A DNA stretch of 41,258 nt, from positions 1-41,258 of the forward strand of contig CAKZUV010000252.1 of NCBI GenBank assembly GCA_937921555.1, given 5' to 3'. The notes under the pieces were generated by a model that was not told the DNA's origin, did no database searches, and saw only the letters and a program-made list of their open reading frames with translations. The DNA is from an uncultured Saprospiraceae bacterium (lineage in GTDB: Bacteria > Bacteroidota > Bacteroidia > Chitinophagales > Saprospiraceae). Below are positions 19,805 through 41,258 of this stretch, piece by piece. Numbering within the stretch: position 1 is the first letter of the stretch; every line of letters begins with the position of its first letter. Both the position numbers and the translations under genes were made by a program.

Positions 19805-19896
19805 TGCTCTTTAAAAATAATACGATCCCGCTGGGATCGATCGACCGTGGGCCTCGAATCTCGGCTAACATAATTTGATCCCCTGGGATCAGACCG
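19805..19896. repeat. GATCCC doublet repeat, copy A
   Basis: A roughly 92-base element with two palindromes, GATCCCGCTGGGATC (19824-19838) and GATCCCCTGGGATC (19877-19890). They are joined by a spacer containing CCTCGAATCTCGGCTAACAT. The same arrangement, with an almost identical spacer, occurs in the same orientation at 40987-41080. The layout resembles REP/BIME-type elements. Confidence 0.8.
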
Positions 19897-23889: not shown

Positions 23890-23972
23890 ATGAGAGACGA
23901 AAATACGAAAATGTCCCGTAGTATGAAGCTGGCTGGTAATTGAATGTCCAAACGGGGTATTATTGGCGATAA

Positions 23973-24130
23973 GTAACGACCAATTAATAAGTCCGTCATC
24001 TTGGCTAGGAAGAATTTAAGCTAGACGAGTTAAAAAACGTAGACATAGCCTAGCTATGGCGAGGCTTTTTTACGAAGTATAGTTTAAATTCTTTTAGCCA
24101 CAGATGTGGAAGTTATTATTTGATCGTTAC
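23973..24130. mobile_element. MITE-like imperfect palindrome, family 1 (full copy)
   Basis: A 158-base element with terminal inverted repeats GTAACGAYCAA and arms of about 77 bases meeting at CATAGCCTAGCTATGG. It is flanked on both sides by TAA, a possible 3-bp target duplication. Bases 23994-24131 recur as the reverse complement at 41121-41258 with only about two differences. The apex hairpins are followed by runs of six T on one side and, read on the other strand, six T on the other, so it might also act as a bidirectional terminator. Confidence 0.8.
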
Positions 24131-24219
24131 TAAGCAGATTTTAATTATCTTTATTGATAGAAGCTGTTTAAAAATGAAGCAGAATGGCTACGAATAAGTC
24201 ATTGATAAATTGAGACTAC

Positions 24220-26758: not shown

Positions 26759-28312
26759 ATGAAAAGAAGATCTTTCCTTAAAAAAAGCAGCCTGGTAACT
26801 TTACCTGCCTTTTTAGGTGGTTTCGAACTATCAGCCTTTTCTTCTAATAATATGTTTAATCTGGTCAATGGGGACGATGATAAAGTGCTCGTTTTGATTG
26901 ATTTGAATGGTGGCAACGACGGACTCTCGTCTTTTGTTCCACTCGATTATTTTGATAACCTGGCCAATGCCCGTCCCAATCTATATCTGCCGGAAAACGA
27001 ATTACTGACCATGACCGATACCATTGGTCTGCATCCGGCGATGGAAGGGATTAATAATTTGTACGACAATGGTAATCTTACCCTCGTACAAGGCGTCGCT
27101 TACCCCGATCAAAACCGTTCCCATTTCCGCTCGGCGGATATCTGGAATACCGGCGTGAAAGCCGACGAATTTAAATCTACGGGATGGATGGGTCGTTATT
27201 TCGACGACGAATTTCCGGGATATCCCGGAGGCTATCCCACCGATGATTGTCCCGATCCTTTTGCGCTTACGCTGGGAAAATCCGTTTCGGGAACCTGCCA
27301 GGGAGCAGACTCTAATTTTAGTTTAGCCATTATCAACGTAGAATACCTGGGCGGATTGACAACCGGTGTGGAAGCGCCGTTACCGGATGATTGTTACGGC
27401 GCAGAACTGGGTTACGTAGTGGATACTTTTAAGAAAAGTAATGCCTACGCAGAACGAATTGTAGACTCCGTAGAAAATGGAAATTCCCTCGTTGATTATC
27501 CGGATAACAGTATTGCCCAACGGCTCAAAACCATTGCACAAATGATCTCCGGTGGTTTACAAACAAAGGTCTTTGTGATTCGTCAGGGTGGTTACGACAC
27601 CCACGCTGATCAGGTTGTGGAAGGAAATACCACCATTGGTAATCACGCAAATTTGCTCAGAGATTTGTCGGATGCCATCTACGCTTTTCAGGAAGATTTA
27701 AAAGCCCTGAATATCGATCAGCGGGTAATAGGAATGACTTTTTCTGAATTTGGTCGAAAGATCATTTCCAACGCCGGAATGGGTACCGATCACGGTACGG
27801 CGGCTCCCATGATGATCTTCGGCAGTTGTATCAACGCGGGCGTCATCGGTAGTAATGCGGAAATTGGAACAGACGTAGACATTGAGGAAGGTGTGGCCAT
27901 GCAATACGATTTTAAATCCGTTTACGGATCGGTGATGATGGACTGGTTTGGGGTCTCCGAGTCAGATGTCAGAAATTACCTCTTCGAAGATTTTCAGCAT
28001 ATTCCAATCATCAATTCCTGTAATATTACCAGCACACAATCGGTCGAGCCTGTGCCCAATATTGCGGTCAGCAGCTATCCGAATCCATTCCGGAATCAGT
28101 TTACCGTCACGGTCACCACGGATCGTACGGAGACCGTGCGGATTGACGTTGCGGACGTGATGGGAAAGACGGTGAAATCAGTTACGAATAAATCTTTGAG
28201 CCGGGGGACTCATGAAATTCCGGTGGCAGGTTATGATCTGGACGGCGGTATTTATTTTGTACGGGTACAGGTGGGCAGAGCCGTGAAGACGTTGCGGGTG
28301 ATGCGGGGGTGA
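26759..28312 (+). CDS. DUF1501 protein with Tat-type signal and T9SS type A sorting domain
   Basis: A 517-residue partner of the upstream DUF1800 protein. The N-terminus MKRRSFLKKSSLVTLPAFLGG has the twin-arginine pattern RRSFLK. The DUF1501 (sulfatase/alkaline-phosphatase-like) body starts with VLIDLNGGNDGLSSFVP and includes LHPAMEG, QNRSHFRSADIWNTG, RQGGYDTHADQ and SEFGRKI...GTDHGTAAPMMIFG. The metal-site-like Asp/His residues are in GGNDG, RSHF, YDTH and TDHG. From about 435 (SSYPNPFRNQFTVTV to KTLRVMRG) there is a type A T9SS domain. It thus carries export marks for Tat across the inner membrane and T9SS across the outer. Substrate unknown. Confidence 0.88.
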   Translation: MKRRSFLKKSSLVTLPAFLGGFELSAFSSNNMFNLVNGDDDKVLVLIDLNGGNDGLSSFVPLDYFDNLANARPNLYLPENELLTMTDTIGLHPAMEGINNLYDNGNLTLVQGVAYPDQNRSHFRSADIWNTGVKADEFKSTGWMGRYFDDEFPGYPGGYPTDDCPDPFALTLGKSVSGTCQGADSNFSLAIINVEYLGGLTTGVEAPLPDDCYGAELGYVVDTFKKSNAYAERIVDSVENGNSLVDYPDNSIAQRLKTIAQMISGGLQTKVFVIRQGGYDTHADQVVEGNTTIGNHANLLRDLSDAIYAFQEDLKALNIDQRVIGMTFSEFGRKIISNAGMGTDHGTAAPMMIFGSCINAGVIGSNAEIGTDVDIEEGVAMQYDFKSVYGSVMMDWFGVSESDVRNYLFEDFQHIPIINSCNITSTQSVEPVPNIAVSSYPNPFRNQFTVTVTTDRTETVRIDVADVMGKTVKSVTNKSLSRGTHEIPVAGYDLDGGIYFVRVQVGRAVKTLRVMRG

Positions 28313-28374
28313 TGTGTGGATTTTTTGATGTGCGGATGTGTGGATTTTTTGATGTGTAGATAGGCGGATTTTTT
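28311..28374. repeat. 24-bp imperfect tandem repeat
   Basis: Units of the form GATGTG(C/T)(G/A)GAT(A/G)(T/G)G(T/C)GGATTTTTT: one 16-base partial unit (28311-28326) and two 24-base units (28327-28350, 28351-28374), with a degenerate echo at 28479-28506. It begins inside the DUF1501 stop codon. Probably a slippage or dispersed low-complexity repeat. Confidence 0.75.
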
Positions 28375-28756
28375 GATTGTTTGATGCTTTTTCTGTTGAT
28401 AACAGCAAGGCAAAAATCTCAAAATCTCCCCTCCGGGGCCGGGGCAAAATTTTGGGATTTTTGCCGGATTTACCTGCAGATTGTTTGATGTGCGGATAGG
28501 CGGATTGGTAATAGAGATACGTAATTTATTTGTTATCTACTCTATTTCCAGAGCGAACTACAAGGTTCAATGATGAGCCTGCTACGAAAAGTATAAAATG
28601 CAATAAACGCAATAAACATTAAAGTAGATTACATTTATAACATATTCGCATTTTAAGATTTACACGTTGAAATCTTTGCGCCTTTGCGCGACAAAAAACT
28701 TTTCAGAGGAGTTTCAATGATTATTCTATGATAAAAATTGGGATAGCTCCTGTTTT
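28313..28756. other. 444-base intergenic region made of repeats
   Basis: Tandem 24-mers, a 57-base hairpin (28409-28465), and at 28674-28691 a CTTTGCGCCTTTGCGCGA stretch typical of low-complexity intergenic sequence in this phylum. No gene. It lies between the DUF1501 gene and a convergent lipoprotein gene, so the hairpin may terminate one or both. Confidence 0.6.
28409..28465. repeat. Long hairpin with GC-rich apex
   Basis: The left arm starts GGCAAAAATCTCAAAAT and the right arm, complemented, reads GGCAAAAATCCCAAAAT; the inner parts (CTCCCC / GGGGC) also pair. The stem is about 22 bp with a few mismatches. It sits 97 bases past the DUF1501 stop and could be a bidirectional terminator between convergent genes or a dispersed palindromic repeat. 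Confidence 0.6.
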
Positions 28757-37592: not shown

Positions 37593-38031
37593 TTATTTAA
37601 AAACATACAATGAGGCTCCCCGACACAAGTCGTCGGGGTATCGCTCAAAGCTAAACACCGTTAATCGGTAAATTTGTTAATCTGTCCCGCTGACGTGTGC
37701 ATCCAAGGCAGCGCCTCGTAGAATTCTTATTGATTAAATATAGCAAGAAAAGATTGTATAGTCAGGGTCTGTTCAATTAACTGTGTCTGAACTAATACCT
37801 CTGCATTATGTATTGAGTGACCAATAACTAATAAACGGATTAAGTAACGATCAATTTATATAAAAATAAATAAAAACAGGGGATGAAGCATAACGAAGCA
37901 GACACCGTTTAATATATTCCTATAGCCACCATTTCAGATCACAATACCATCCGGAAATTCTCACTATAACCATCTTTTATTTGACCTGTTTTATGTATCT
38001 TGTCAAATTTCACTAAAATAAAAATACGTCA
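37593..38031. other. 439-base divergent intergenic region
   Basis: It contains the GC-rich hairpin CCCCGAC/GTCGGGG (37618-37638) and TAAGTAACGATCAA at 37841-37854, which matches the outer end of the family 1 MITE-like element plus its TAA flank but has no partner end within 160 bases. No promoter with both conserved boxes was found for the TonB receptor, and no gene is evident. Confidence 0.5.
37841..37854. repeat. Solo end of the family 1 palindromic element (possible)
   Basis: TAAGTAACGATCAA is identical to the TAA flank plus terminal repeat of the elements at 23973 and 41121. The rest of the element is absent, so it may be a remnant or a chance match. Confidence 0.35.
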
Positions 38032-40986: not shown

Positions 40987-41080
40987 GCTCTTCAAAAAAT
41001 AATGCGATCCCGTTGGGATCGATCAAACGCGGGGCCTCGAATCTCGGCTAACATAATTTGATCCCGCTGGGATCATTCCG
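40987..41080. repeat. GATCCC doublet repeat, copy B
   Basis: Palindromes GATCCCGTTGGGATC (41006-41020) and GATCCCGCTGGGATC (41060-41074), with the CCTCGAATCTCGGCTAACAT spacer. Same order and orientation as the copy at 19805-19896, with only a few differences over about 93 bases. Confidence 0.8.
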
Positions 41081-41120
41081 TAAATGTGCGTTGGGGAACT
41101 GCCATTTTTTTTTGAATTTA

Positions 41121-41258
41121 AGTAACGATCAAATAATAACTTCCACATCTGTGGCTAAAAGAATTTAAGCTATACTTCGTTAAAAAGCCTCGCCATAGCT
41201 AGGCTATGTCTACGTTTTTTAACTCGTCTAGCTTAAATTCTTCCTAGCCAAGATGACG
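41121..41258. mobile_element. MITE-like imperfect palindrome, family 1 (second copy, cut by window end)
   Basis: Reverse complement of 23994-24131 with about two differences over 138 bases. It begins with AGTAACGATCA after TTA, the same flank as the other copy. About 20 bases of the far end would lie beyond the window. Confidence 0.85.

Follow-up and report, generated by a model that had tools for sequence, protein, structure and literature searches.

The 158-bp palindrome at positions 23973-24130 of the window is a recently multiplied, gene-less transposable element (a MITE), and its insertion with a 3-bp TWA duplication is observed in the genome. The window is the whole stretch of DNA that was analysed (41,258 nucleotides); it constitutes the whole of contig C252 in a 5.44-Mb genome assembled into 403 contigs. 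Rather than filler, the body of the element is a single long, imperfect hairpin, the centre of which is common to many MITE families with differing ends. In the reading to which we give a probability of roughly 0.7, the MITE would be moved by an IS5-type DDE transposase, and its core hairpin would be selected as a folded single strand, most likely a transcript.

Two TAA copies enclose the element (read directly: GATAA, the element from GTAACGACCAATTAATAA to TTATTATTTGATCGTTAC, then TAAGC). A second copy, placed behind a TonB-dependent receptor gene, follows AATTTAA and reads GTAACGATCAAATAATAA from 41122. The palindrome, its TAA flanks and the near-identical inverted copy had been recognized in an earlier sequence-only reading, and direct reading confirms them: arms 23994-24131 and 41121-41258 form an inverted pair of 138 nt with 99% complementarity. 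That reading placed the second copy at 41121-41258; the copy is present and 99% identical, but it starts at 41122, since 41121 is the last base of its TAA. It is truncated because the contig ends with the window, and 137 of its bases are present. The element is short (158 bp), with 18-bp terminal inverted repeats and without coding sequence; its length leaves no room for a transposase gene. Folded as RNA, the first copy reaches -61.8 kcal/mol, whereas shuffled sequences average -29.31 (z -8.85) and none of 200 does as well; folded as DNA it has a z of -8.21, so that the palindrome is far beyond chance. It is imperfect, with an apical hairpin and two internal loops inside. The features are:

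23970-23972, no strand: left target-site copy TAA (direct reading, flank comparison)
23973-24130, + strand: family-A element, complete copy of 158 bp, in the orientation reading AAAAACGTAG
23973-23990, + strand: left terminal repeat GTAACGACCAATTAATAA
24013-24026, + strand: helix 1, 5' side, partner 24077-24090 (positions from alignment A1, described below)
24027-24031, + strand: outer internal loop, 5' side, GAGTT here and RAGGC in most other families
24032-24036, + strand: helix 2, 5' side AAAAA, partner TTTTT at 24066-24070
24037-24043, + strand: inner internal loop, 5' side ACGTAGA
24044-24058, + strand: helix 3 and apical loop, CATAGC-CTA-GCTATG
24059-24065, + strand: inner internal loop, 3' side GCGAGGC
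24066-24070, + strand: helix 2, 3' side
24071-24076, + strand: outer internal loop, 3' side, TACGAA here and AACGAA in most others
24077-24090, + strand: helix 1, 3' side
24113-24130, - strand: right terminal repeat, GTAACGATCAAATAATAA as read on the - strand
24131-24133, no strand: right target-site copy TAA
37841-37861, + strand: TAA and a solo terminal repeat GTAACGATCAATTTATAT (repeat 37844-37861), with 2 mismatches to the 18-mer, a relic or chance
41119-41121, no strand: target-site copy TAA of the second element
41122-41258, - strand: second family-A element, 99% identical, truncated at the contig end

Other repeats also occur in the window. Identical 34-bp repeats at 19849-19882 and 41032-41065 lie beside GATCCCGCTGGGATC-type palindromes (19814-19838, 40996-41020 and 41050-41074) and belong to another dispersed repeat family. 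Degenerate tandem repeats with 8-bp steps follow a long ORF at 28302-28378.

A genome-wide search with the 158-base sequence finds the element in at least 22 places at 92-100% identity, and the same search adds at least three further complete elements of 188-192 bp; copy counts are lower bounds, 40 of 137 first-look candidates having been scored. Twelve of the 22 places are full length and 10 are truncated, every one at a contig end, as expected of repeats that break assembly. All 30 flanks of the 15 complete copies are TAA or TTA, never TCA or TGA, and the triplet is equal on both sides in 13 of the 15 (TAA/TAA in L006, for example), the unequal ones being L005 and L023. An empty site is provided by contig C285, where a family-A copy interrupts another palindrome (family D) between GAGC and TAA: an uninterrupted family-D sibling in C16 matches the joined flanks over 159 of 168 bases and has a single TAA. 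Matches to an apparent empty site of L008 were self matches of its own right flank and were dropped. The palindrome of family D itself is 154 bp long and has GAGCTTGTTTAAA ends; its hairpin centre, with A6/T6, differs but is similar in architecture (L232:1589-1742; L004:1416 onwards). Thus the number of places, the equal TWA flanks and the single-TAA empty site together identify the non-coding element as a MITE, in agreement with the non-autonomous MITE proposed from its shape, and they exclude the alternative of two copies only at fixed positions. A living autonomous partner is not demanded by most definitions of a MITE. In this genome 48 occurrences of the end pattern TWAGTAACGAYCAA were counted (reversed control 0), against two in six congeners together (controls 5), so that the burst is confined to this species. 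Several solo family-A ends with unrelated interiors are also present. One of them (L030:4303-4562, at the end of C189) lies about 240 bp before an apparent CRISPR repeat, ATTAGGATTGAAAC, at the contig end.

The centre of the element reaches far beyond its own family. BLAST searches of 60 relatives matched 15 genomes, mostly only at element positions ~50-109, and when these matches were read, the centre turned out to lie within elements whose ends are different. Scanning GTDB genomes with the core pattern gave at least 110 stretches, mainly from Saprospiraceae, Lewinella and Chitinophagales, a cultured carrier being Lewinella cohaerens DSM 23179 (element at L138); among the matches listed, some come from Draconibacterium and Flammeovirgaceae and a few from MAGs labelled Lactobacillales, Streptococcaceae or Eubacterium. 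Clustering of 116 distinct, sufficiently complete elements (17 from the own genome, 6 from relatives, 93 from GTDB) shows a core of ~57 nt common to at least 41 families (clusters at 80% identity) with dissimilar ends. TWA-flanked ends include GTAACGAYCAA of family A, GTAATGGTCGAA, GAGCTTGTYYAAA, GGGTTTGTGAAGAAATAA, GGGACGGGAAATAAATAA and GAGCCTGTTAACG, among others. In a second class CTAG flanks both ends (6 of 6 copies of one family), and in a third TATA does so (7 of 8 loci looked at, L192 having TACA on one side); as both are self-complementary, CTAG and TATA could belong to the ends instead of being duplications. Families with different ends could have diverged from one ancestor with the core held, or could have gained the core by exchange. 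The sharing of one core across end types hints at a common, so far undescribed function.

Rfam 15 yields nothing at gathering score in the nine loci scanned, and the only hit on an element (MIR1515 at L110 2373-2499, - strand; E 0.14, with 26.6 bits where the gathering score is 140) was taken as chance. The core pattern has 0 exact matches in viral_contigs, the 158-bp sequence no match in plasmids and a family-B core no match in phages. One frame of the core is open in several families, but inspection by eye led to rejection of a coding reading, since frames and lengths differ from family to family and L049 carries a stop in the frame concerned. A description of such a core was not found in open-licence papers, which is weak evidence.

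Model R1 of the core matches 59 of 100 Saprospiraceae genomes (58 of 99 genera), several with at least 40 hits; one genome consisting of a single contig has 31. Across the phylum at least 9 of 395 genomes match, counting the own genome: five belong to the same family, three to a single other family of the class and one to a different class. This is a lower bound, given 10 scored candidates per genome and strict filters. Among matches in other families, L268-L270 keep the fold and change the inner loop, and L271 keeps mainly the outer loop. The six contigs labelled Lactobacillales, Streptococcaceae or Eubacterium that carry core elements are L137, L142, L152, L171, L176 and L179; TAA stands on both sides in L137, L171 and L176, and TTA on both sides in L152. 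L171 encodes an RNase J1 (RnjA) and L137 a manganese-dependent pyrophosphatase, both above cut-off. These proteins are typical of Bacillota, so that L171 and L137 at least look like genuine Bacillota contigs, suggesting transfer of the core elements between phyla. The two largest frames of L176 are without family hit.

The structure of the core was derived from A1, an alignment of 41 cores comprising 40 of the 41 cluster representatives and a second member of one cluster (L101); L174, with one arm replaced, was left out. From the outside inwards, the core consists of helix 1, a loop RAGGC/AACGAA, a helix of five A-U pairs, a loop ACGYAG/CGAGGC and an apical helix of six pairs. The 25 pairs of these three helices are formed in 91.3% of cells, double changes occur in 21 of them, and the covariation score is 0.651, against 0.196 for shuffled alignments and at most 0.155 with partners slid. 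Most cores have a mismatch at pair 22-79 of helix 1, and A-C is frequent at pair 43-58. Four helix-2 pairs are invariant in A1, where the search pattern fixed them; in model hits obtained independently of that pattern, both sides change in four of the five helix-2 pairs (GCGAA/TTCGC in L265, for example), in an alignment fitted to the model and leaning to it.

Double changes can also arise without selection, since quasi-palindrome correction, an established process, yields them. On this basis the elements could form an ordinary IS5-type MITE superfamily, in which the core reflects only old common ancestry, with no role other than that of the least diverged middle, and template-switch repair in long inverted repeats keeps the palindromy. 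Two-ended elements are mostly 154-167 bp irrespective of their ends, and such nearly constant arm lengths around the core are as under simple descent; the existence of 54-bp coreless derivatives also fits. However, this explanation does not predict loops far better kept than arms: between families, mean identity is 0.80 for RAGGC+A, 0.45-0.47 for helix 1 and 0.34-0.35 for the outer arms, with 0.27 for random sequence. In 19 hits, themselves found with the model, most loop positions keep one base or base class. Nor does it predict the one-strand G-U excess in the arms described next, and we judge it unlikely.

Pairing maintained on double-stranded DNA would give G-T and A-C equally often on either strand. 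The strand that reads AAAAACGYAG has 64 G-U against 21 A-C in the three helices (51 against 8 in helix 1; 12 against 12, and so no asymmetry, in helix 3) and 100 against 32 in the outer arms, compared in all 41 representatives. Thirty clusters lean to G-U, three to A-C and eight are ties. Purine-purine mismatches exceed pyrimidine-pyrimidine mismatches on this strand. Its composition is skewed (A 2303, T 1907, G 1444, C 990), which alone would give a ratio near 1.2. A C-to-T mutational bias as the cause of the G-U excess is not supported by within-family variants (C>T 36, G>A 60). The one-strand excess and the compensatory changes suggest that selection acts on a folded single strand, which is probably RNA rather than single-stranded DNA, since as DNA the elements are copied and mobilized in either orientation. 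The orientation of the elements to neighbouring genes shows no bias (tandem ++ 30, -- 24, p 0.50, among 95 loci with two neighbours), and a promoter scan stayed near the shuffled expectation. In our preferred reading, the core transcript would protect, process or regulate something for the element or the host.

G-T pairs are tolerated in folded single-stranded DNA too. The selected strand could accordingly be DNA, perhaps exposed in replication, serving as substrate of a nuclease, a recombinase or a Y1 (HUH) enzyme, like REP or attC. Four Y1_Tnp genes are present in the genome, and GYAG precedes the hairpin in 41 of 41 aligned cores (the search pattern required it), recalling the GTAG tag of REPs. 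Yet model R1, searched up to E 10, finds no core beside the four Y1 genes (L053-L056), the TWA duplication at both ends marks a DDE transposase and not Y1, and REPs end at GTAG where here GYAG lies inside a longer hairpin. A selected DNA strand is distinctly improbable. A role of the core as transcription terminator or insulator, making insertions less harmful, is very improbable. On the - strand one terminator-like site coincides with the core (0.4 expected), but on the + strand the run of U pairs within helix 2 and does not come directly after the apical stem. The two genes flanking the first window copy, moreover, are transcribed divergently: one, on the - strand, is enoyl-CoA hydratase-like and the other, on the + strand, weakly nitroreductase-like. 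Of the 95 loci, 14 have convergent neighbours, the rarest class.

As to the mobilizing enzyme, a link runs through a sister family, C, which has the same core and 141 end matches in this genome (control 0). Its ends, GAGCTTGTYYAAA, and IS5-type ends, GAGCRTGTCTAAAA, are alike in kind; family-A ends are without such a match. All 18 two-ended family-C loci have equal TWA flanks; the pattern used to pick them includes TWA. In the relative G012, two 886-bp elements (L252 and L255) with ends GAGCATGTCTAAAA and GAGYGTGTCTAAAA and TTA on both sides encode a DUF4096 transposase (PF13340, IS5-type). The own genome encodes a single IS5 transposase (NF033580), located at a contig end and associated with GAGGCTGTTYAAAAAT ends. 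A 3-bp TNA duplication characterizes the IS1031-like group of the IS5 family, and the 30 flanks of family A, TWA only, agree with it. The earlier suggestion of an IS5-group TNA duplication thus holds in part: a relative has IS5-type transposases flanked by TTA on both sides and bearing GAGCRTGTCTAAAA-like ends, which match the core-bearing sister family, but none was found for GTAACGAYCAA.

The matching transposase gene looked for with these ends did not appear in the searches made. The own assembly and the loci examined in relatives hold no autonomous element with GTAACGAYCAA ends, a weak result in a broken assembly. Patterns of 18 bp and 14 bp for the ends gave, among the listed places of the own genome inspected, the known elements and solo ends, and no facing pair at 0.6-3 kb. 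GTAACG ends are absent from the examined loci of DDE_Tnp_1 (5 matches, own genome), DUF4096 (3 of 20 genomes) and DDE_Tnp_4 (7 of 60 genomes). At C16 and C103, family-C ends paired over a long distance resembled an IS, but these candidates were rejected because they enclose ordinary genes. IS5-type transposition is our best guess for the superfamily and a guess for the GTAACGAYCAA family, drawn from the sister family, in which core and type of target site are the same. The family-A MITE would be moved in trans by an IS5-type DDE transposase that recognizes the terminal repeats and duplicates TWA on insertion.

Variants of the elements bear on what such movement requires. Instead of GAGGC, 9 of the 10 cluster members of the window family have GAGTT. 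The family has multiplied nonetheless, so an intact outer loop is not needed for transposition. Seven 54-bp family-C derivatives (L234-L240), in which one arm is joined to the other end, mostly AAATTT to AAATTT, have equal TWA flanks at 7 of 7 loci. These coreless forms give no sign that the core is needed, and they may be in-place, possibly hairpin-driven, deletions. Longer variants (L023-L025 in family A, 188-192 bp; L241-L248 in family C, 193-255 bp) carry small palindromic inserts at fixed core places. Both families have an insert beginning CCTGCCCGATCTGACGATC after TTTTTAAC, and both have one containing TGAACCGC and then GCGGACGGG after GAGGC. This looks like site-specific nested insertion or module exchange.

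Bacterial MITEs are classified by their ends and by the IS that mobilizes them. The IS5-family (IS1031-like) MITEs, such as those of Porphyromonas gingivalis with ISPg-type ends, are likewise small, non-coding and present in many copies in Bacteroidota hosts, with ends like those of IS5-family elements, as also seen here in sister family C (GAG...) (PMC4596501). As described, P. gingivalis MITEs have common ends and differing bodies (PMC4596501), whereas here a common core has differing ends. GTAACGAYCAA ends match no IS here. ERIC, NEMIS/Correia and QMITE are palindromic MITEs too, with transcripts that fold into stable hairpins, and processing by RNase III or RNase E is reported for NEMIS/Correia and ERIC (PMC10969869). 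The accessible sections of this review describe no family with one structured core inside many ends, and Porphyromonas is the only member of the Bacteroidota mentioned in them (PMC10969869). REP/REPIN sequences with RAYT are likewise short, dispersed palindromic repeats with GYAG before a hairpin, and GTAG repeats are listed for Proteobacteria, Cyanobacteria, Chloroflexi and PVC (PMC3733652). Compared with them, the element here is much longer and has terminal repeats and a TWA duplication, and no core was found beside the four Y1 genes of this genome.

It is tempting, if tentative, to see the core as a portable structured RNA, a hairpin with two invariant internal loops that is carried by TWA, TATA and CTAG MITEs across Bacteroidota and on at least two Bacillota contigs and is kept for a function of its own; we hold this possible at rather less than even odds. 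Such an RNA could bind a widespread host or transposon protein, raising the spread of the element or blunting its harm. What the elements present is a constant body with varying ends, in at least one bacterial family and further afield. A fold under selection as RNA would represent a large uncatalogued RNA family, given its reach within Saprospiraceae, and would raise the question of what a gene-less parasite needs an RNA for. Should the RNA prove portable, it would constitute a mobile non-coding RNA family defined by its core and not by its ends.
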